From: Verrucomicrobiaceae bacterium
GTDB taxonomy: Bacteria > Verrucomicrobiota > Verrucomicrobiia > Verrucomicrobiales > Verrucomicrobiaceae
Length of the DNA stretch: 64,000 nt
Direction of reading: 5' to 3'
Assembly (NCBI GenBank): GCA_027487315.1
Contig: JAIYDW010000233.1
Coordinates: 1-64,000, forward strand
Position numbers and translations under genes: made by a program. Below are positions 54,341 to 64,000 of this stretch, in pieces. The notes under the pieces were generated by a model, which did not search any database, was not told the DNA's origin, and worked only from the letters and a program-made list of their open reading frames with translations. The first letter of the stretch is position 1, and every line of letters starts with the position of its first letter.

Positions 54341-56911
54341 ATGATGAATCGGCCCGACCCTAACTCGCTGCGCTTAGCTCCGGTCATCCGCGATCATGAA
54401 ACGATCCGGCAGATTGGGCGTGGGGCGTTTGGAGAGGTTTGGTTGGCGAAGAGTGCGACCGGGGTGTTGAGAGCGGTGAAGGTGGTGTGGCGTGAGGACT
54501 ATGACCATGAGGAGTCGTTTGAGCGGGAGTTTGAAGCGCTGAAGCGGTATGAACCGATCTCGCGCAAACATCTGGGTTTGCTGCCGATTCTTCAGGTTGG
54601 GCGCAATGAGGAGGCGGGATTTTACTACTATGTGATGGAGTTGGCGGACGATCTGGAGCAGGGGCGGGAGATTGATCCGGCGACATACAAGCCGCACACC
54701 TTGGGATTGCAGATGCGGCGTGATAAGCGGTTGAAGGTGACGGAGTGCATCGCGCTGGGGTCGAATGTGGCGGAGGCGCTGGGGTATTTACACCGGAAGA
54801 AGTTGATTCACCGGGATGTGAAACCCTCCAATTTGATTTTCTTGGATGGGCAGTGGCGGTTGGCGGATATTGGATTGGTGGCGTTGCTGGGGCAACGGAG
54901 TTATGTGGGGACGGAGGGGTTTGTGGCGCCTGAGGGACCGGGGACTGCGGCTTCGGATATGTTTAGTCTTGGGATGGTGTTGTATGAGGCAGCAACGGGG
55001 AAGGATCGGTTGGATTTTCCGGATTTGCCTTCGGCTTCGGGTTCAGGTGAGAAGTTGGAGTTATGGAGGAGGCTGAACCAGGTGATCTGCAAGGCCTGTG
55101 CGACGAAGGCTTCGAAGCGGTATGAATCGGCGGATGAGATGGCCTTGGCGTTGAGGGGCGAGATGCTGCCTTCGGCAAGGCGGACGATGTTTTGGACGGC
55201 GGGAATCGGAGCGTTGGCCGTGGCGGTGGTGTTTGGGATGTGGTTGGCGAGTTCCAATCGCGGGCGGGCTTTGCGGTCGGTGGAGGTGGGGCCAGCGATG
55301 GTCAAGATTTTATCTGAACCGCCGGGAGCGGAGGTTTTTTCGGGCGAGTCTTTGTTGGGGGTGACGCCATTGGAGTTGACGCCGCCGCAGGGATTGCCGG
55401 TGCTGTATCAACTGCGGATGGCAGGGCACAAGCGATTGGAGATCGAGCACTTGCCGAGCGAGGATGGCGATGATGCGGAGTATCATTTGAAGCTGGAGTC
55501 GTCGCGATTGCCGCAAATCGGAGAGTTGTGGAAGAATAGTTTGGCGATGGAGTTCAAGCCGCGCGGGGGAGGGCATGCCAGCATGACGCCGGTTCAGATG
55601 AGTGTGTTTCGCGAGTTTTTGGGTGAACAAAGGCGGCCGTTTGAGGGGCGTGTGGTGCGGTTTTTGCAGGGGACGGATCGTGAGCAGATTTACATTGTGG
55701 TGGTGCCGGTGGCGGATGCGGAGGCGTTCCGATTTTGGCTGACGGATAGGGATCGGTCGGCTGGGTATCTGAGTCAGGAGCATTTTTATGAAGTGGAGCC
55801 GTTTTACTTTGTAGAGAATGCGGTAGCGACTGAGGACATGCCGGATATGCCCGGGAATGGGGCGGAGGAGACTGGGAAGGACTGGCAGGCGTTTTATTTG
55901 AGGGTGAGCAAGCAGACGTATGGGACCGTGGTGGTGCGATCGGCGCCTGAGGGGGTGAAAGTGTATCAGAACGAGCAGTTGTTGGGGGAGACGCCATTGG
56001 AGTTGCCCCGGGTGAGATCTGGCGCGGTGGAGTATGAGTTGAGGGAAGAGGGTTTCACGGACTTGGTATTGGAGGGGGAGGTGAAGGAGGCGGATTATTT
56101 GGAGTTGTTTGCGGACATGGACGCGAAGAAGGGGGTTAAGTTTGGGAGGGAGTGGAAGAACACACTGGGGATGAAGTTTGTGCCTCTGGGAGATGTTTTG
56201 ATGTCGGTTTGGGAGACTCGGAGACGTGACTACCTGGAGTTCACGAAGGAGACGGGTGGCAAGCGGCCAGGGGGAGGGGAGGGGATTGAGACGAAATCGG
56301 CGACCCAACCGGTGATGAACATTTCGCGAGAGGAGGCGCGTGCTTTTTGTGCGTGGCTGACAGACCGGGAACGGACTTCGGGTTTGATTGGACCGGGGGA
56401 TGCGTATCGGTTGCCGACAGACGAGGAGTGGAGTCGGGCGGCGGGGTTGCCCTTGGAACGCGGGGCGGATCCGGCACAGCGGAGTGGTCGGATTCGAGGC
56501 ATCTATCCCTGGGGGTTTGAATGGCCACCACCGTCGCATTACGACAACTTTGCGGATGTGACGGCGGTGCAACGTGCGGGTGCAGATTCGGCGATACCGG
56601 GTTACGATGACCGGTTTAGTTTTACCGCTCCTGTGACCGCCCTGCAGCAAAATGAAAATGGGTTGATTGGATTGGCGGGCAACGTGTCGGAATGGGTGGA
56701 TACCGATTTTGACCTCAAGGCGGAGGTATCTGAAACCACTGGATCTGCGAATGGCGTTGGGACGGTGCGCGGGGGGAATTGGCGCAGCCACTCGCAAGAA
56801 GAGTTGCTGGCTTCGACGCGACTGGCGTTGGCGGCGGAGGCACGCCGAAACACGGTGGGTTTTCGGGTGATCTTGTCGCGTGCGCCTGCTGTTTCCCAGG
56901 TGGGTCGCTGA
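54341..56911 (+). CDS. Ser/Thr protein kinase with PEGA and FGE-like domains
   Basis: An 856-residue single-pass membrane kinase. Cytoplasmic kinase domain (residues ~20-275): GRGAFGEVWLA, ATP Lys K47 in RAVKVV, catalytic LIHRDVKPSNL (H157-R-D159), LADIGLVA in place of DFG, and VAPEGPG. The membrane helix is at ~285-307 (AGIGALAVAVVFGMWLA). Outside lie two PEGA repeats (ILSEPPGAEVFSGESLLGVTP; VVVRSAPEGVKVYQNEQL), each followed by an FGE/sulfatase-modifying-factor-like segment. The second is full length (WKNTLGMKFVPLGD to GFRVILSR); the first (WKNSLAMEFKPRGGG) is a shortened copy. The catalytic Cys of true FGE enzymes is absent (RGGNWRSHS), so the domain probably binds a ligand. Confidence 0.88.
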   Translation: MMNRPDPNSLRLAPVIRDHETIRQIGRGAFGEVWLAKSATGVLRAVKVVWREDYDHEESFEREFEALKRYEPISRKHLGLLPILQVGRNEEAGFYYYVMELADDLEQGREIDPATYKPHTLGLQMRRDKRLKVTECIALGSNVAEALGYLHRKKLIHRDVKPSNLIFLDGQWRLADIGLVALLGQRSYVGTEGFVAPEGPGTAASDMFSLGMVLYEAATGKDRLDFPDLPSASGSGEKLELWRRLNQVICKACATKASKRYESADEMALALRGEMLPSARRTMFWTAGIGALAVAVVFGMWLASSNRGRALRSVEVGPAMVKILSEPPGAEVFSGESLLGVTPLELTPPQGLPVLYQLRMAGHKRLEIEHLPSEDGDDAEYHLKLESSRLPQIGELWKNSLAMEFKPRGGGHASMTPVQMSVFREFLGEQRRPFEGRVVRFLQGTDREQIYIVVVPVADAEAFRFWLTDRDRSAGYLSQEHFYEVEPFYFVENAVATEDMPDMPGNGAEETGKDWQAFYLRVSKQTYGTVVVRSAPEGVKVYQNEQLLGETPLELPRVRSGAVEYELREEGFTDLVLEGEVKEADYLELFADMDAKKGVKFGREWKNTLGMKFVPLGDVLMSVWETRRRDYLEFTKETGGKRPGGGEGIETKSATQPVMNISREEARAFCAWLTDRERTSGLIGPGDAYRLPTDEEWSRAAGLPLERGADPAQRSGRIRGIYPWGFEWPPPSHYDNFADVTAVQRAGADSAIPGYDDRFSFTAPVTALQQNENGLIGLAGNVSEWVDTDFDLKAEVSETTGSANGVGTVRGGNWRSHSQEELLASTRLALAAEARRNTVGFRVILSRAPAVSQVGR

Positions 56912-56942: not shown

Positions 56943-58112
56943 CTAGTATTTGGGGATTTTGGGATCCACTTGTTCGGACCAGGCGGTAATGCCGCCAGCG
57001 ACATTCCAGACGTTGGTGAAGCCATTTTCGAGGAGGAAGGCTACGGCTTTGGCACTGCGACCGCCGAGTTTGCAGTGCACGACGATTTGTTTGTCCTTGG
57101 GGACTTCGTTGGTGCGCAGAGGGAGGCTAGCAAGCGGGATGAGAGTGGAGCCTTCGATGCGGGCCGTTTGAAACTCGTCGGGCTCGCGGACATCGATAAG
57201 GAAGTGTGGGGTTCCGGCTTTGCGGAGTTGGTCGAGGTCTTGGACGGTGAGTGTGGGGACTTGAGGTGGGGGATTCATGGTATTGGGGGAAAAAGAGGGC
57301 ATGCCGCAGAAGCTTTCGTAGTCGATGGGTTCGGTGATGGACGGGCTGGTTCCGCAGACGGGGCATTCGGGGTCGCGGCGGAGGGTGAAGGTGCGGAAGC
57401 GCATGGAGAGGGTGTCCACATGCAGGAGTTTGCCGAGGAGGGGGGTGCCGATGCCAGTGAGGAGTTTGATGGCTTCCAGAGCCTGCATGGTGCCGATCAT
57501 GCCGGGAAGAACGCCGAGAACACCGCCTTCGGCGCAACTGGGGACGAGGCCGGGTTTGGGAGGCACGGGAGACATGCAGCGATAACAAGGGCCTCCGAGG
57601 TGCGGGGCGAACACGGCGACTTGGCCGTCGAAGCGCAGGATCGAGCCGTAGACGTTGGGGATTTTGAGCCAGACAGCGACGTCATTGCTGAGGTAGCGGG
57701 TGGGGAAGTTGTCTGTTCCGTCAATGATTAGGTCATAGCCGGTCGCTATTTTGAGGGCGTTTGCAGCGGTGAAGGGTTCGGGGTGGAGATTGAGGTTGAG
57801 GGTGGGGTGAAGTCCGAGGAGGCGGTCGGCGGCGGCTTCGAGTTTGGGGCGTCCCTGGTCTTGGGTGCTGAAGAGGATTTGGCGTTGTAGGTTGGAGAGT
57901 TCCACACGATCTGGATCGACAATGCCGAGGGTGCCGACTCCGGCGGCTGCGAGGTAGAGGGTGATCGGGGAACCCAGTCCGCCTGCGCCGATGCAGAGGA
58001 TTCGAGCTGCTTTGAGTTCTTTTTGAGCCTGCTCGCCAAACTCAGGAATTGCCAAATGCCGAGCGTAGCGGAGTCGCTCGTCGGCGGTGAGTTCTGGCAA
58101 AGAGGAGGGCAT
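56943..58112 (-). CDS. MoeB/ThiF-type adenylyltransferase with rhodanese domain
   Basis: A 389-residue E1-like enzyme that adenylates and thiolates a ubiquitin-like sulfur carrier (MoaD or ThiS type) for molybdopterin, thiamine or thio-tRNA synthesis. The nucleotide loop is CIGAGGLGSPITLYLAAAGVG, with the arginine finger in ELSNLQRQIL. Zinc ligands lie in CYRC and CPVC. The C-terminal rhodanese domain (residues ~285-389) has the persulfide Cys C347 in VHCKLGGRS. This architecture matches MoeZ/MoeBR. No carrier-protein gene is adjacent. Confidence 0.92.
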   Translation of the reverse strand: MPSSLPELTADERLRYARHLAIPEFGEQAQKELKAARILCIGAGGLGSPITLYLAAAGVGTLGIVDPDRVELSNLQRQILFSTQDQGRPKLEAAADRLLGLHPTLNLNLHPEPFTAANALKIATGYDLIIDGTDNFPTRYLSNDVAVWLKIPNVYGSILRFDGQVAVFAPHLGGPCYRCMSPVPPKPGLVPSCAEGGVLGVLPGMIGTMQALEAIKLLTGIGTPLLGKLLHVDTLSMRFRTFTLRRDPECPVCGTSPSITEPIDYESFCGMPSFSPNTMNPPPQVPTLTVQDLDQLRKAGTPHFLIDVREPDEFQTARIEGSTLIPLASLPLRTNEVPKDKQIVVHCKLGGRSAKAVAFLLENGFTNVWNVAGGITAWSEQVDPKIPKY

Positions 58113-58228: not shown

Positions 58229-58303
58229 CCTTTGAGACATTCATTGATGTAGGATTTTGCATTGATGGGCCGTTGGTTTTATAGAGTCGTCCCTTTCACA
58301 ACC

Positions 58304-59488
58304 ATGACCCAACCTGTTCCCTCCCCGGTTAAGGCTTCGTATGTCGGCACTTGGATCGCTACCTTGTTGCTCGTCGTTACGTTTGTCTTCGGGTTGTTAT
58401 TGTTTCCGCCGTCGTTTGAAGCGGTGGAAGGAATGCCTGAGCCTTCCCACAATGTGCTTTTTTTGGGACGTTTTCACCCGATCCTGGTTCACCTGCCGGT
58501 GGGAATCTTGGTTTTTCTATTGGTGATGGAGACGCTGTGTTTGAGGCGGTCAGTCGAAGCGAAATTTGGTGAGGCAGCGCTTTTGGCTCTTTGGATTGGT
58601 TCAGCGGGGGCGGTGTTTGCGGTGCTGGCCGGGATTATGTTGTCGCGTGAGGGTGGTTACGAAGGGGGGACTTTCACGTTGCACCAGGGATTGGGAATCA
58701 TTGGGACGGCGGGTATTCTGCTGGGTTTGCTAATGAGATTGGCGGGCATGTCGACGGAGAATCGGAGTTTGGTGGATGGGTATCGGGCTGTTTTGCTATT
58801 GTCTTTTTCTTTGATGGGGATCGGGGCTCACTTTGGAGCGAACATGGTGCATGGCAGCAAATACATGACTCAGTATGCTCCTCCGATGATTGCGGAACAG
58901 ATCACGGGGATGGAAAAGTGGATGCTGTCTTTGGTTGAGGGACCGGCGGAAGGGGGCAAGATCGCGGTGCCGACGCCCAAAGTCGAGGAGCCCGCCGTGG
59001 TGAAGGTTGACACCGCTCCGGTGGAACCTAAGACGCCTGCGATGGTGCCTGAGTCGGCTCCGGCGCCCTCAGTTCCTCCGGTCGTCAAAACGGAGGGGCC
59101 AATGGTTGCGGGAGCGGAAGGGAAATTGGTGTTTGAGCATTTGGTCCTGCCTGTTTTGGAGGAAAAGTGCAACAAATGTCACAATGCGGACAAGTCGAAG
59201 GGTGATCTCCGGTTGGACACGCATGAAATGGTCATGAAGGGCGGTGAGACGGAGGAAAATGTGGTTCCAGGAAAGCCTGATACGAGCCTCTTGATTGCGC
59301 GAATCAAGTTGCCCGAGGACGATGACGAGCACATGCCGCCGGAAGGCAAGCCGCAGATTTCGCCTGAAGAGCTTGCGTTGTTGAGTTGGTGGATTGAACA
59401 AGGAGCCTCCAACACGACGACTGTCAAAGACGCCCAATTGCCACCTGAGACCCAATCGCTGGTCCAAAAATTATTAGCACCATTATGA
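58304..59488 (+). CDS. DUF2231-like membrane protein with planctomycete-type cytochrome c domain
   Basis: A 394-residue protein. The first ~195 residues hold four or five membrane helices of the DUF2231 type (FHPILVHLPVGILVFLLVME is the hallmark). A Pro/Val/Ala/Lys-rich periplasmic linker follows, then a C-terminal PSCyt1-like heme domain with C289-N-K-C292-H293 and the ending HMPPEGKPQISPEELALLSWW. It is probably an inner-membrane-anchored electron carrier. An in-frame start 42 bases upstream is possible. Its stop overlaps the LRR-cytochrome gene as ATGA. Confidence 0.82.
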   Translation: MTQPVPSPVKASYVGTWIATLLLVVTFVFGLLLFPPSFEAVEGMPEPSHNVLFLGRFHPILVHLPVGILVFLLVMETLCLRRSVEAKFGEAALLALWIGSAGAVFAVLAGIMLSREGGYEGGTFTLHQGLGIIGTAGILLGLLMRLAGMSTENRSLVDGYRAVLLLSFSLMGIGAHFGANMVHGSKYMTQYAPPMIAEQITGMEKWMLSLVEGPAEGGKIAVPTPKVEEPAVVKVDTAPVEPKTPAMVPESAPAPSVPPVVKTEGPMVAGAEGKLVFEHLVLPVLEEKCNKCHNADKSKGDLRLDTHEMVMKGGETEENVVPGKPDTSLLIARIKLPEDDDEHMPPEGKPQISPEELALLSWWIEQGASNTTTVKDAQLPPETQSLVQKLLAPL

Positions 59489-61905
59489 TCGAGAGAGATA
59501 CTAGCCTAAAGACTGGGACAGAAATGTTGGTCGTTAACCCTCTGTCTGCCGTGATTCGAAACTGCATCAAAGGGGCAGGATTTGGACGAACAGTGACCGC
59601 GTGGTGTGGTGCGGTGGTTATGGTGACGGCGGGAGGCAGTCTGAGCCATGGGGCAGACGAGGCCAAGGGGCCTTCGCCAGCGATGGTGGAGGCCATTCAA
59701 AAGGTGGAGGCGGCCGGGGCGTCGTTGTTGCCGATTGCATCGGGTGTCTCCAGCTATCGATTCACGGCCTTGAATGTGGCGAAAGAGTTTGGCGATGCAG
59801 GTTTGGATGCGCTTTTGCCTGTAGCAGATAGCATTGTCTCGCTGGATTTGGCGAGGACCCAAGTGACGGATGCCGGTTTGGCGAAGGTGGCCAAGATGAG
59901 TGCCTTGAAGGAACTTCGTTTGGACAACACAGGGATTGGTGATGCGGGTTTGGTTCATCTGACGGGACTGAAGAATCTGGAATACCTGAATGTGTATGGG
60001 AGCAAGGTGACCGATGGGGGAATTCAGAAACTGGCTGGGCTTTCGAATCTCAAGGCGCTTTATGTCTGGCAGACTGGGGTGACAAAAGCGGGGGTGGCGC
60101 AATTGAAGGGCAAACTGCCCAAAGCGCATATCAACAATGGGTGGAGTGCTGAGGATGATGCGAAGGCAGTCACGGCGGCTTCGGTCGCTGCGGCGGCGGA
60201 TACGGGAAAGGTGGAAATCAAGGGTGGCATTGATGCCAAGGCGATGGCGTCTTTGGTGGTTTATAAGGATGTGGTAGCGCCCATTTTGGCCAACAAATGC
60301 AATGGCTGCCATGGGGCAGAGAAGAGCAAAGGGAAGCTCAAAATGCACACCTTTGCTGACCTCCTCAAGGGTGGGAGTGAAGGTGGGGTGACGGTGATTG
60401 CGGGCAAAGCTGCTGAGAGCTTGTTGCTGAAGCGGGTGGCGTTGCCAATGGACGACGATGAACACATGCCACCAGAAGACAAAGAGCAACTGACGAAAGA
60501 GGAAGTGGCCTTGATCCAGTGGTGGATCAACGAAGGGGCATCGGAGAAGCAAACGCTGGATAAAGCCAAGCGTAATGCGGAAGTTGATGGGGCTTTGGCG
60601 GTGGTCTTGAAGAACAAGGTAAAACCAGCTGTGGGAGCAGTTCCTGCAGCATCGACAACAGAGAAACCTGCTGGAAAGCCTGCCGCAGCACCGGAGAAGG
60701 CGACTGCAGTTGCAGCGCCGGCAGCGAATGCGGAGGCTGCTGCGAAGGCGATTGTGTATCGGGATGTGGTTGCGCCGATTTTGGCGGAAAAATGCTACTC
60801 CTGTCACGGGGAAGAGAAGGGGAAAGGCAAGTTGCGGATGCACACGTTTGCGGACCTGAAGAAAGGTGGCAGCGAAGGAGAGGTGAATTTGGTGGCGGGT
60901 AAGTCAGCGGATAGTTTGATGATTCAGCGGATCCTGCTGAGTACTGACGATGATGAACACATGCCGCCCACAGATGAGCCGCAGGTCACCAAGGAGGAAT
61001 TGGCCTTGCTGAAGTGGTGGATTGATAATGGGGCTTCGGAAACGGAGACCGTTGCAGCGGCGAAGAAGACTCCGGAGGTGGAGGGGTTACTGGCCGTTGC
61101 CCTCACGAAGGTGCCCGTTAAGCCGGTCGATTTGGTTCAGAAGATCGAGAAGCCCAAGGCCAAGCCACTGACCGAAGAGCAGAAAAAGAAGGTGGCTGAA
61201 ATCACCACCAAGTTGTCAGCTCTGAACGCGACGCTGATGCCACTGGCGCAAGATACGGAGCAACTGCGATTGAGTGTGATCAATGCGGCGAACCAATTTG
61301 GGGACAAGGAGTTGACTTTGTTGGAGCCGATCGCTGAACAAATTTTGTGGTTGGACCTGGCGCGTAGCCAAGTGACGGATGCGGGTCTGGATACCATTGC
61401 CAAAATGGTTCATTTGGGGCGTTTGCATTTGGAGAATACCCAGGTCACTGACGCTGGGCTGGCGAAGCTTGGAAAATTGGGTGAGTTGGAGTATTTGAAT
61501 CTGTATGGAACAAAGGTGACGGATGGCGGGATTGCGAAACTCGAAGGGGCCAAGGGGTTGAAAAAGTTGTTTGTGTGGCAGACTGGAGTGACCAAGGCCG
61601 GAGCGACGGCTTTGGAAGGGAAGGTGGCTGGTTTGGTGGTCAATGTGGGATTGAGTGAGGCCGAGATAGCAAAGCTTACAGCGCCGCCGCCTGTGCCACC
61701 CCCAGCTCCCAAGGCAGAAGCTGCGAAGCCGGCGCCGAAGCCGCAGGCTGATGCTGCGCCTGCAAAAAAGAAAGGCGAGGGCAAAGGGAAAGGTAAGCCA
61801 AAAGCTGCGGATAGCGCGGTGAAGGCGGCACCAGCACCTGCTCAACCTGTGGTGCCTGCACCCGCTCCCAAACCTGAGGTGAAACCTGAGACCAAAGGTA
61901 ATTGA
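59485..61905 (+). CDS. Exported LRR-cytochrome-cytochrome-LRR protein
   Basis: An 806-residue periplasmic or surface protein with a mirror-like architecture. A signal segment (residues ~30-56) is followed by an LRR block (~65-215; LDLARTQVTDAGLAKVAKM, LEYLNVYGSKVTDGGIQKL). Heme domain 1 (C272-N-G-C275-H276) and heme domain 2 (C437-Y-S-C440-H441) are joined by an Ala/Pro-rich linker. A second LRR block (~555-730) is nearly identical in layout (LDLARSQVTDAGLD; LEYLNLYGTKVTDGGIAKL). The tail is Pro/Ala/Lys-rich. Both heme domains are the planctomycete type (DDDEHMPP). Codon use lacks the strong G skew. The gene is translationally coupled to the DUF2231-cytochrome gene. Confidence 0.85.
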   Translation: MIERDTSLKTGTEMLVVNPLSAVIRNCIKGAGFGRTVTAWCGAVVMVTAGGSLSHGADEAKGPSPAMVEAIQKVEAAGASLLPIASGVSSYRFTALNVAKEFGDAGLDALLPVADSIVSLDLARTQVTDAGLAKVAKMSALKELRLDNTGIGDAGLVHLTGLKNLEYLNVYGSKVTDGGIQKLAGLSNLKALYVWQTGVTKAGVAQLKGKLPKAHINNGWSAEDDAKAVTAASVAAAADTGKVEIKGGIDAKAMASLVVYKDVVAPILANKCNGCHGAEKSKGKLKMHTFADLLKGGSEGGVTVIAGKAAESLLLKRVALPMDDDEHMPPEDKEQLTKEEVALIQWWINEGASEKQTLDKAKRNAEVDGALAVVLKNKVKPAVGAVPAASTTEKPAGKPAAAPEKATAVAAPAANAEAAAKAIVYRDVVAPILAEKCYSCHGEEKGKGKLRMHTFADLKKGGSEGEVNLVAGKSADSLMIQRILLSTDDDEHMPPTDEPQVTKEELALLKWWIDNGASETETVAAAKKTPEVEGLLAVALTKVPVKPVDLVQKIEKPKAKPLTEEQKKKVAEITTKLSALNATLMPLAQDTEQLRLSVINAANQFGDKELTLLEPIAEQILWLDLARSQVTDAGLDTIAKMVHLGRLHLENTQVTDAGLAKLGKLGELEYLNLYGTKVTDGGIAKLEGAKGLKKLFVWQTGVTKAGATALEGKVAGLVVNVGLSEAEIAKLTAPPPVPPPAPKAEAAKPAPKPQADAAPAKKKGEGKGKGKPKAADSAVKAAPAPAQPVVPAPAPKPEVKPETKGN

Positions 61906-61935
61906 GGTTCGTTCGTTTAATTGATATCTCCTTTC

Positions 61936-62568
61936 ATGAACGAATTCCATTCCCGGCGACGGCTTGCCGTTGTCTTTTGTTGTCTTTCAGTTTTGCCCTT
62001 CTCTTCAGCTTGTAAGCGGTTGGGTGAGCGAGTGGAAATCACAGAGACGCGTGAGATTTCCCAGTATGAGGCTGAGCCCAAGCTGTTTGCATACAGCCAG
62101 CAGCGCTTTAGCAATGATCCGTTGTCCTGGGAAACGCCGGCGGGTTGGGTGCAGGCGGAACGGAGTCAGATGCGACCGATCAATTTGCGTTTTGGTCCGA
62201 ATGGGGAGGGAGAATGCTATCTATCGATGCTTCCAGGAGGGGCAGGAGGAACGGTGGCGAATGTGAATCGCTGGCGAAAGCAGATGGGACAGGCTGAATT
62301 GCCCGAAGCTGAGGTGGCGGCGTTGCCGAAGCGGGTGTTGATGGGAATCGAGGGGGTCTTTGTCACTCTGGATGGCTCATACACCAATGTGGGGTCGGCA
62401 GAGGCAACGGCCGATCAACGGTTGATGGGGGTGATCGCTGCGTTGGGTGAGGTGGGTTTGTTTGTCAAGATGGTGGGTCCGAAAGAACTTGTTGTCGCCA
62501 ATGAGCCAGCCTTTAACCAGTTTGTCGAATCGCTGCGTCTGCGGCTTCCACAGGGCGGCGGTAAGTGA
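61936..62568 (+). CDS. Putative lipoprotein of unknown function
   Basis: A 210-residue protein with a lipoprotein-like N-terminus: hydrophobic segment AVVFCCLSVLPFSSAC ending in a Cys at residue 26, giving lipobox SSAC. The mature part contains SWETPAGWVQAERSQMRPINLRFG and ECYLSMLPGGAGG. This pattern of a short beta-rich domain with W-E-x-P-x-G-W recurs in hypothetical proteins of this phylum. It sits between the LRR-cytochrome gene and resB, so a role in cytochrome assembly or in the same electron-transfer complex is likely but unproven. Confidence 0.6.
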   Translation: MNEFHSRRRLAVVFCCLSVLPFSSACKRLGERVEITETREISQYEAEPKLFAYSQQRFSNDPLSWETPAGWVQAERSQMRPINLRFGPNGEGECYLSMLPGGAGGTVANVNRWRKQMGQAELPEAEVAALPKRVLMGIEGVFVTLDGSYTNVGSAEATADQRLMGVIAALGEVGLFVKMVGPKELVVANEPAFNQFVESLRLRLPQGGGK

Positions 62569-62623: not shown

Positions 62624-63823
62624 ATGAGTTCCTCTTCTTCCCAGTCAACGACGAATCCGTTCGTGCTGCTGTTCCGTTTCTTTTCATCGTTCGGTCTCGC
62701 CGTCACGGTTCTGAGTTTGCTATTGGTGATCACGCTGCTTGGCACGTTGTCTCAATCGGACATTGGTCTTCTCGATAGCCAAAGAAAGTATTTCGATTCG
62801 TGGTCAGTGGTTCATGATTTTCATGTGGGCAGCACGGTGATTCCGATTTGGCTACCAGGCGGCATGGCTTTGATGATGCTGCTTTTTGTGAACATGGCGT
62901 GTGGGGCGGTGATTCGAATGCGGAAGGGGTGGAAGACGATTGGGGTTTTGATTTCGCACCTATCGATCATGTTCATGCTGGCGGCGGGCTATGTGTCCTA
63001 TTTGTTTAAAACGGAGGGGGCATTGCCTCTGTTTGAAGGGCAAAGTGGCGATCTGTATCAAAGCTATCATGACCGTGTGATTGAGGTTCGGAAGTTTGAT
63101 GCGGAGGGGAAGGGTGAAGCGACGACTTTGATGATTCCGATGGAGGATTTTATGGATTTGGAGCCTGGTAAGGCCCGGACCTTTTACAGTAAGGATTTGC
63201 CATTTGAACTCTTGGTGACGGGCTACCAGCGCAATGCGCAAGTGGTGCCGAAGCAAGAAGAGGGGGCTAGTGTCATCGATGGGTTTGGAATTCAACCCGT
63301 GCGTGTCGAGACGACAGACGAGCAAAACTTGAGCGCCCTAGTGGTCACGGTGACGCCGAAGGATGGGGGCGCGGTGGAGCGCGCCATTTTGTGGGAGGCG
63401 GCATTTGAGCCGTTTACAGTGAAAGCGGGTAAAGAGGCTTACACGTTGTCACTGACACGTCGGAAGTGGAAGTTGCCGTTTGCGCTTCGACTGGAGGATT
63501 TTCAGCGTGAACTTCACCCTGGCACCGAGAAGCCGAAACGATACACCAGCCACGTGACCAAGATTGACAATGGGAGTGAGCAGCCGCAGGTGATTACCAT
63601 GAACGTGCCGATGCGTGATCGGGGTTTTGTATTGTATCAAGCGTCCTTCAGCCAGGGCACGTCAGGGGAGCAATCGGTGTTCACGGTGGCAAGCAATCCG
63701 TCGGATCAATGGCCGCTGTGGTCCTGCGTTGCGGTGGCGTTTGGGTTAACGATTCACTTTGTGATGCATTTGGCGCAGTTCCTGAAGAGGACCCTGAAGC
63801 CCAAGGAGAAGGCGGCTGCCTGA
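62624..63823 (+). CDS. resB: Cytochrome c biogenesis protein ResB (System II)
   Basis: A 399-residue membrane protein of the ResB/CcsB family that works with CcsA to deliver heme and attach it to CXXCH motifs outside the inner membrane. RFFSSFGLAVTVLSLLLVITLLGTL is the first helix pair, with further helices at ~80-100, ~110-130 and near 365-385. A large periplasmic domain lies between (residues ~135-360) and ends with VPMRDRGFVLYQASFSQ. The frame opens upstream into the previous gene; the ATG giving MSSSSSQSTTN is used. ccsA follows. Confidence 0.9.
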   Translation: MSSSSSQSTTNPFVLLFRFFSSFGLAVTVLSLLLVITLLGTLSQSDIGLLDSQRKYFDSWSVVHDFHVGSTVIPIWLPGGMALMMLLFVNMACGAVIRMRKGWKTIGVLISHLSIMFMLAAGYVSYLFKTEGALPLFEGQSGDLYQSYHDRVIEVRKFDAEGKGEATTLMIPMEDFMDLEPGKARTFYSKDLPFELLVTGYQRNAQVVPKQEEGASVIDGFGIQPVRVETTDEQNLSALVVTVTPKDGGAVERAILWEAAFEPFTVKAGKEAYTLSLTRRKWKLPFALRLEDFQRELHPGTEKPKRYTSHVTKIDNGSEQPQVITMNVPMRDRGFVLYQASFSQGTSGEQSVFTVASNPSDQWPLWSCVAVAFGLTIHFVMHLAQFLKRTLKPKEKAAA

Positions 63824-63859: not shown

Positions 63860-64000
63860 ATGAAGACGTTTGTTTTTTTCCTCACACTTCTTGCCTCGAT
63901 TTGCCAGGCACAACTGGTTGATCCTGCTTGGTTGCGCGATCCAGAAGTCGTAGCGGCGTTTCAATCGGTTCCGATTTTGGAAGGCGGGAGGCATAAGCCG
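63860..64000 (+). CDS. ccsA: Cytochrome c biogenesis protein CcsA-like, start only
   Basis: The first 47 codons of a gene running off the right edge. A signal peptide (MKTFVFFLTLLASICQAQ) is followed by VAAFQSVPILEGGRHKP. The 'F..vPvl..GR.KP' pattern begins the periplasmic N-terminus of CcsA/ResC-type proteins of Bacteroidetes and related groups, usually before the heme-handling WWD domain. Its place directly after resB supports the call; the catalytic region is not visible. Confidence 0.65.
   Translation, partial: MKTFVFFLTLLASICQAQLVDPAWLRDPEVVAAFQSVPILEGGRHKP

Follow-up and report, generated by a model that had tools for sequence, protein, structure and literature searches.

Organization of the locus

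We analyzed a 64,000-nucleotide stretch of DNA from a Verrucomicrobiaceae bacterium (contig JAIYDW010000233.1 of assembly GCA_027487315.1; the whole stretch is called the window here), which contains a gene for an 806-residue exported protein. A Pfam scan orders the domains of this protein as LRR1–PSCyt1–PSCyt1–LRR2, where LRR denotes a leucine-rich repeat block and PSCyt1 a planctomycete-type cytochrome c domain (Cyt). The gene is very probably the latter half of a DUF2231-(PSCyt1-LRR)n system, arranged head to tail, that starts in the overlapping gene upstream, and the protein looks mirror-symmetric because the gene boundary cuts through a head-to-tail repeat. Read together, the two genes give DUF2231–[Cyt0 / LRR1]–[Cyt1]–[Cyt2–LRR2], with the slash marking the gene boundary (Table 1).

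The 806-residue protein matches PSCyt1 (PF07635) in two stretches with 99.8 bits against a cut-off of 22 (1.3e-28), and both domains, Cyt1 and Cyt2, retain an intact CXXCH and the methionine of HMPP. Together with the Pfam order and a signal-peptide-like segment, these features bear out an initial annotation of the sequence as an exported LRR-Cyt-Cyt-LRR protein with two planctomycete-type cytochrome domains; its homologues carry Sec-like signal peptides that are clearer than the one in the window protein. Covalent heme c is predicted on the PSCyt1 domains, with the ligand residues conserved and ResB and CcsA genes adjacent.

The upstream protein matches both DUF2231 (PF09990; 7.1e-10, 39.5 bits against a cut-off of 26.4) and PSCyt1 (Cyt0; 9.3e-16, 58.6 bits), and its AlphaFold2 model has a predicted local distance difference test score (pLDDT) of 83.8. 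Five DUF2231 histidines (H72, H77, H141, H190 and H197) are each present in 39–40 of 40 sequences, and the odd number of helices, five, would put both Cyt0 and these residues on the periplasmic side. The ATG of the LRR gene overlaps the upstream stop codon by 4 nucleotides, a −4 spacing shared by the three sequences examined from the genus (L001, L002 and L005). A sequence search of the PDB with DUF2231 left the domain itself unmatched, the matches being cytochrome chains; Foldseek gave no match at E < 0.001. An NCBIfam search returned sub-threshold matches alone.

Table 1. Features of the cytochrome–LRR locus, in window coordinates
Feature	Position	Strand	Details
DUF2231 + PSCyt1 (Cyt0) gene	58262–59488	+	408 residues; five predicted transmembrane helices; probable first half of the same system
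DUF2231 membrane domain	58472–58855	+	five conserved His, predicted periplasmic face
Cyt0 (PSCyt1)	59168–59347	+	CNKCH ... HMPP, in upstream gene; CXXCH at residue 303
ATGA overlap	59485–59488	+	stop of DUF2231-Cyt gene / start of LRR gene
LRR1-Cyt1-Cyt2-LRR2 gene	59485–61905	+	806 residues; ATG start; Pfam, AlphaFold2
Signal-peptide-like segment	59587–59655	+	residues about 35–57, hydrophobic; VTAWCGAVVMVTAGG
LRR block 1	59671–60144	+	residues about 63–220; Pfam, self-alignment, AlphaFold2, Foldseek
Cyt1 (PSCyt1), extra heme domain	60259–60555	+	CNGCH at 60298–60312, residues 272–276
Cyt2 (PSCyt1)	60754–61053	+	CYSCH at 60793–60807, residues 437–441
LRR block 2	61174–61680	+	residues about 564–732; Pfam, self-alignment, AlphaFold2, Foldseek
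Pro/Ala/Lys-rich disordered tail	61681–61902	+	pLDDT <50 for residues 746–806 (AlphaFold2)
Putative lipoprotein gene, conserved downstream	61921–62568	+	FSSAC lipobox; no Pfam match; cluster in 16 loci
ResB gene (System II cytochrome c maturation)	62624–63823	+	Pfam ResB 2.9e-16; frame open from 62447, start at 62624 likely by inspection
CcsA gene start	63860–64000	+	runs to contig position 65842, past the window end; open reading frame L001:7861–9843

LRR blocks and their conserved concave faces

Pfam models LRR_4, LRR_6 and LRR_8 score above cut-off in two blocks of the 806-residue protein. AlphaFold2 predicts both as solenoids in which strands recur at intervals of about 24 residues (at 117, 143, 167, 191 and 215 in LRR1; at 620, 646, 670, 694 and 718 in LRR2) and pLDDT mostly 90–96, and in Foldseek searches they match LRR structures of ribonuclease inhibitor, NLRP1 and internalins, placing both in the leucine-rich repeat superfamily. 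The blocks align without gaps at 82 of 159 identical positions (52%, E = 1e-52), so their likeness is not due to chance. The solenoids called for by the initial annotation are thus predicted, and its description of two blocks alike in sequence and spacing is confirmed; where it saw the same helical lead-in, the model has a helix before each block (residues 65–76 and 564–579). It had also noted WQTGVTKAG as a motif ending both blocks; the sequence does occur in both (residues 195–203 and 698–706), but it is the ordinary fourth LRR repeat of this family (LxxLxVWQTxVTxAG), with its Trp kept in every aligned Verrucomicrobiota LRR block, and we reject a special end motif.

We compared surface conservation across 47 loci, assigning concave positions by the canonical LRR pattern. 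Mean entropy on the concave face was 0.31 versus 1.01 at other exposed residues in LRR1 (p = 2e-4), and 0.12 versus 1.04 in LRR2 (p = 1e-5). Within the window protein, 10 of 16 concave positions are the same in the two blocks (D, A, R, N, Y, N, Y, G, W and Q). Because these positions are nearly invariant, a fixed partner is favored: the pattern suggests one constant partner common to both blocks rather than variable ligands.

Domain architectures in relatives

We searched 107 loci, drawn from the genome collection and from related genomes, with profiles built from the DUF2231, Cyt and LRR domains. Writing D for DUF2231, C for Cyt, L for an LRR block and a slash for a gene boundary, the architectures after removal of duplicates were DC/LCL (35), DCL (31), CL (5), DC/LCCL (4), DCLCCL (3) and LCL (2), with DCLCL, CLCCL, LCCL, DCCL and DC found once each. 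Later loci added three more fused DCLCL (G005, G008 and G015) and two DCLC (G038 and G051). The single-unit DUF2231-Cyt-LRR protein occurs as one open reading frame (ORF) in Bacteroidota and Akkermansiaceae, most Verrucomicrobiaceae have the split form DC/LCL, and the complete series (DCLCL, DCLCCL) is carried in single ORFs of 960–1236 residues. One Cyt between the LRRs is the common state among relatives. No inverted LRR-Cyt unit was present in the surveyed loci, where the order was always DUF2231, Cyt, LRR, Cyt (with or without a second Cyt), LRR.

Some forms merit further description. DUF2231-Cyt-LRR-Cyt (DCLC) proteins from another family of the order (L125:6694–8685 and L129:6014–8155) are intermediate in form and fit direct repetition. 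LRR-less DUF2231-PSCyt1 proteins of 263–337 residues occur in distant Verrucomicrobiota (L115–L120), with no evident common neighbor genes. The initial annotation had proposed a genome-wide search for further LRR-PSCyt1 combinations; beyond those across the 107 loci, the genome of the window itself encodes a second Cyt-LRR paralogue without DUF2231, a 325-residue open frame on contig C9 (26966–27940; L121:5967–6941). Downstream of it lie a gene for a FAD_oxidored protein, at 0.5 kb, and a DUF1501 gene on the opposite strand, at about 5 kb; proteins like this paralogue, at about 36% identity, are found in many relatives.

Duplication history

In a Cyt tree of 100 columns, whose bootstrap was not fully settled, Cyt0 copies form one group apart from all inner Cyts with 100/100 support. 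Cyt2 of the window protein falls in the inner-Cyt clade of one-heme relatives. A single clade of the first Cyts (C1) of heme pairs was rejected (approximately unbiased test, p = 0.0004), and well-supported branches force at least three changes. Because the C1 copies do not form one clade and at least three changes are forced, the trees indicate that the inner Cyt was duplicated late and in place, at least three times, in the genus of the window, in Verrucomicrobium and in a Prosthecobacter-like lineage. LRR2 copies sit on a 99% branch, which also takes in one DCCL copy and a single-unit copy on a long branch; support for the group of LRR1 copies is weaker (74). A concatenated tree has 2 changes of the fused or split state, one of these being L003, and 4 changes of the heme count, one of these being the DCCL row.

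These results are best explained by a simplest form, DUF2231-Cyt-LRR, whose Cyt-LRR unit was tandemly repeated in Verrucomicrobiaceae to give DCLCL. In most genera the reading frame is broken between Cyt0 and LRR1, with a signal peptide on the second half, and one further round of inner-Cyt duplication in each of the three lineages produced DC/LCCL. Since the single-unit outgroups are fused, fission is favored. Linkers of the fused forms keep weakly hydrophobic stretches, and in L003:1–2919 an open frame links Cyt0 to LRR1 through a linker that holds a complete signal-peptide-like stretch (MVSPAGLRRLALAAVAAAGMAATTPAAE); this frame is either a re-fused gene or contains an internal start.

The initial annotation had offered two other origins for the LRR-Cyt-Cyt-LRR order. 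In one, a ready-made heme pair was inserted between two LRR copies, as the adjacency of the two PSCyt1 domains might suggest; we consider this highly improbable, as the inner Cyt falls in one clade with the lone inner Cyt of LCL relatives and heme pairs formed in place in separate lineages. In the other, an LRR-cytochrome unit was duplicated with inversion to yield a mirror-symmetric protein, which the 806-residue protein would fit if read alone, but with Cyt0 directly upstream in an overlapping gene, DCLCL and DCLCCL occurring as one ORF in relatives, and inner Cyts that are late duplicates in each lineage, its likelihood is close to nil: duplication stands, the repeated unit being Cyt then LRR head-to-tail, and inversion is contradicted by the fused ORFs and the trees.

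Gene neighborhoods and genome profiles

In Verrucomicrobiaceae, the multi-unit genes are followed by genes for a lipoprotein, ResB and CcsA (clusters in 16, 17 and 20 loci; also in G005, G008 and G015); the CcsA cluster representative (L004:6258–8627) matches Cytochrom_C_asm at 1.2e-23. The 31 single-unit DCL loci, many from Pedobacter, have other neighbors: a DUF1501 gene lies nearby in 23/31 and a PSCyt1–PSCyt2–PSD1 gene in 21/31, usually in the order PSD1, DUF1501, DUF2231-Cyt-LRR. The same set is found in three genomes of other Verrucomicrobiota families (G174, G151 and G135).

We also compared gene content across genomes. Among 57 relatives, DUF2231 is present in 44 of the 50 genomes with PSD1 versus 0 of the 7 without it, nearly always in one copy, whereas PSD1 matches number about 10 to 40 or more in most PSD1 genomes, with about 39 candidates at most scored per genome. 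Among 145 genomes of the phylum, DUF2231-Cyt occurs in 5/7 with strong PSD1 matches versus 5/138 others (Fisher p = 1e-5). All five genomes with an LRR-bearing form have strong PSD1 matches, and the other five, without a strong PSD1 match, have LRR-less forms alone. Phylogeny is left out of account in these tests and the sample is small, so the co-occurrence statistics are no more than suggestive. The genome of the window has 67 PSCyt1 matches in 5.87 Mb and one DUF2231, at the window locus.

Two genes precede the cytochrome operon. By eye, the first (54341–56911, + strand) encodes an 856-residue protein with a Ser/Thr protein kinase domain and PEGA-like and formylglycine-generating-enzyme (SUMF)-like segments. 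The second (56943–58112, − strand), divergent from the operon, appears to encode a ThiF/MoeB-type adenylyltransferase with a C-terminal rhodanese domain.

Proposed mechanism and alternatives

We propose that DUF2231 would be the inner-membrane anchor of a complex, with its periplasmic-face histidines possibly forming a heme b or quinol site, and that Cyt0, Cyt1 and Cyt2 would act as a short heme wire in the periplasm, with the neighboring ResB-CcsA as its maturation system. A fixed redox partner in the periplasm would dock on the LRR concave faces; the most likely candidates are the PSCyt1-PSCyt2-PSD1 and DUF1501 proteins, whose genes lie next to that of the single-unit form in Bacteroidota and in other Verrucomicrobiota. 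Verrucomicrobiaceae would have one multi-unit hub for their many PSD1 paralogues. That the protein is a membrane electron-transfer partner of PSD1/DUF1501 we regard as slightly less than an even bet. More tentatively still, and with the doubt clearly the heavier side, these proteins could be the missing membrane electron-transfer hub of PSCyt/PSD1/DUF1501 systems in PVC bacteria (the Planctomycetes, Verrucomicrobia and Chlamydiae) and Bacteroidota, with LRR solenoids as docking arms and one hub for dozens of PSD1-type proteins. Taken whole, origin together with inferred mechanism, we lean slightly towards accepting the explanation.

Several observations weigh against it. The window locus is not in a PSD1/DUF1501 operon, its neighbors being ResB/CcsA, and the same holds across Verrucomicrobiaceae. 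Phylogeny confounds the genome co-occurrence, 6 of the 7 negative relatives belonging to a single genus, and positives are few in the phylum sample. In the three distant operons, the LRR blocks reach our own profile but fall below Pfam cut-offs. Fold comparison (VIA) relates DUF2231 to cytochrome b561 with Z of 9.4–10.2, but designed bundles and talin score higher, so that the resemblance (Z 10) is no better than that of any helical bundle; because unrelated bundles reach as high a Z or higher, we treat a heme b site in DUF2231 as hypothetical. On the evolutionary side, the L003 frame with its signal-like linker leaves fusion a possible alternative to fission within the family. Finally, the literature searched holds no measured function for DUF2231, PSD1 or DUF1501.

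The 806-residue protein may couple ligand binding to electron transfer, as the initial annotation suggested, but the near-invariant concave faces speak for one fixed partner. The specific case of a glycan ligand, either a substrate or a polysaccharide bound by the LRR concave faces, is unlikely but the strongest of the alternatives. An invariant Tyr/Trp-rich concave patch (Y167, Y171, Y193, W195 and equivalents), the F5/8-type C, LamG or CHB_HEX_C domains added in some relatives, and the frequency of sulfatases near PSCyt genes (PMC5615132) would be consistent with glycan binding. However, the patch also has conserved D, R, H, E and N, it is common to both blocks of every species although lineages will meet different glycans, and the proteins constantly encoded with the single-unit form are those of PSD1/DUF1501. 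A System II accessory role, in which the LRRs would keep hold of apocytochromes or partner cytochromes while these mature, would account for the lipoprotein, ResB and CcsA genes conserved downstream in Verrucomicrobiaceae. We think this improbable, as PSD1/DUF1501 genes rather than maturation genes adjoin the single-unit form in both Bacteroidota and other Verrucomicrobiota, and the protein itself has c-heme motifs. A redox or ligand sensor signaling across the membrane would make use of the combined membrane anchor, periplasmic heme and LRR, but the system is without a cytoplasmic output domain and no regulator is conserved beside the family across phyla, leaving this reading with very little probability.

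If the hub proposal is true, it would describe a periplasmic electron-transfer branch absent from the literature searched. In these bacteria, the "planctomycete-specific" cytochromes have multiplied to dozens per genome. A concrete candidate for the destination of their electrons is the conserved DUF2231–Cyt–LRR protein, which is present in one copy and in its simplest form is an operon-mate of PSD1 and DUF1501 in two phyla. The case also illustrates that a gene boundary can give a head-to-tail repeat protein a mirror-symmetric look.

Comparison with known systems

PSCyt1 proteins of the PSCyt1-PSCyt2-PSD1 (DUF1549/DUF1553) type were described in Verrucomicrobia metagenome-assembled genomes by He et al. 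2017 (PMC5615132), a survey that gives the functions of "planctomycete-specific" cytochromes as unknown. It was the sole relevant paper on PSCyt1 with LRR in the literature searched, which held no description of DUF2231 function. PSCyt1-PSCyt2-PSD1 proteins have the same class I-like c-heme domain (CXXCH ... MPP) and share operons with single-unit relatives of the window system, but the latter joins PSCyt1 to DUF2231 and LRR units and is without the PSCyt2/PSD1 part.

Two known proteins resemble single parts of the system. One domain of FoxE (PDB 5mab), a putative diheme c-type iron oxidase, resembles PSCyt1 (E = 4e-7; Z 9.2 over 92 residues, 22% identity), although FoxE has neither LRR nor DUF2231. 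Cytochrome b561 and Dcytb are likewise four-helix membrane bundles with conserved histidines, their VIA Z of 9.4–10.2 lying within the range of unrelated bundles; unlike in these proteins, the DUF2231 histidines lie on one face by predicted topology, and heme in DUF2231 is hypothetical.

The closest counterparts are the single-unit DUF2231-PSCyt1-LRR proteins of Bacteroidota and Akkermansiaceae (for example Pedobacter, L038), which have the same order and are homologous in all three domains. They comprise one Cyt-LRR unit in one gene beside PSD1/DUF1501, whereas the window system has two LRRs and three Cyts in two genes beside ResB-CcsA. LRR is not named among PSCyt partner domains in the figure legend of the 2017 survey (PMC5615132).

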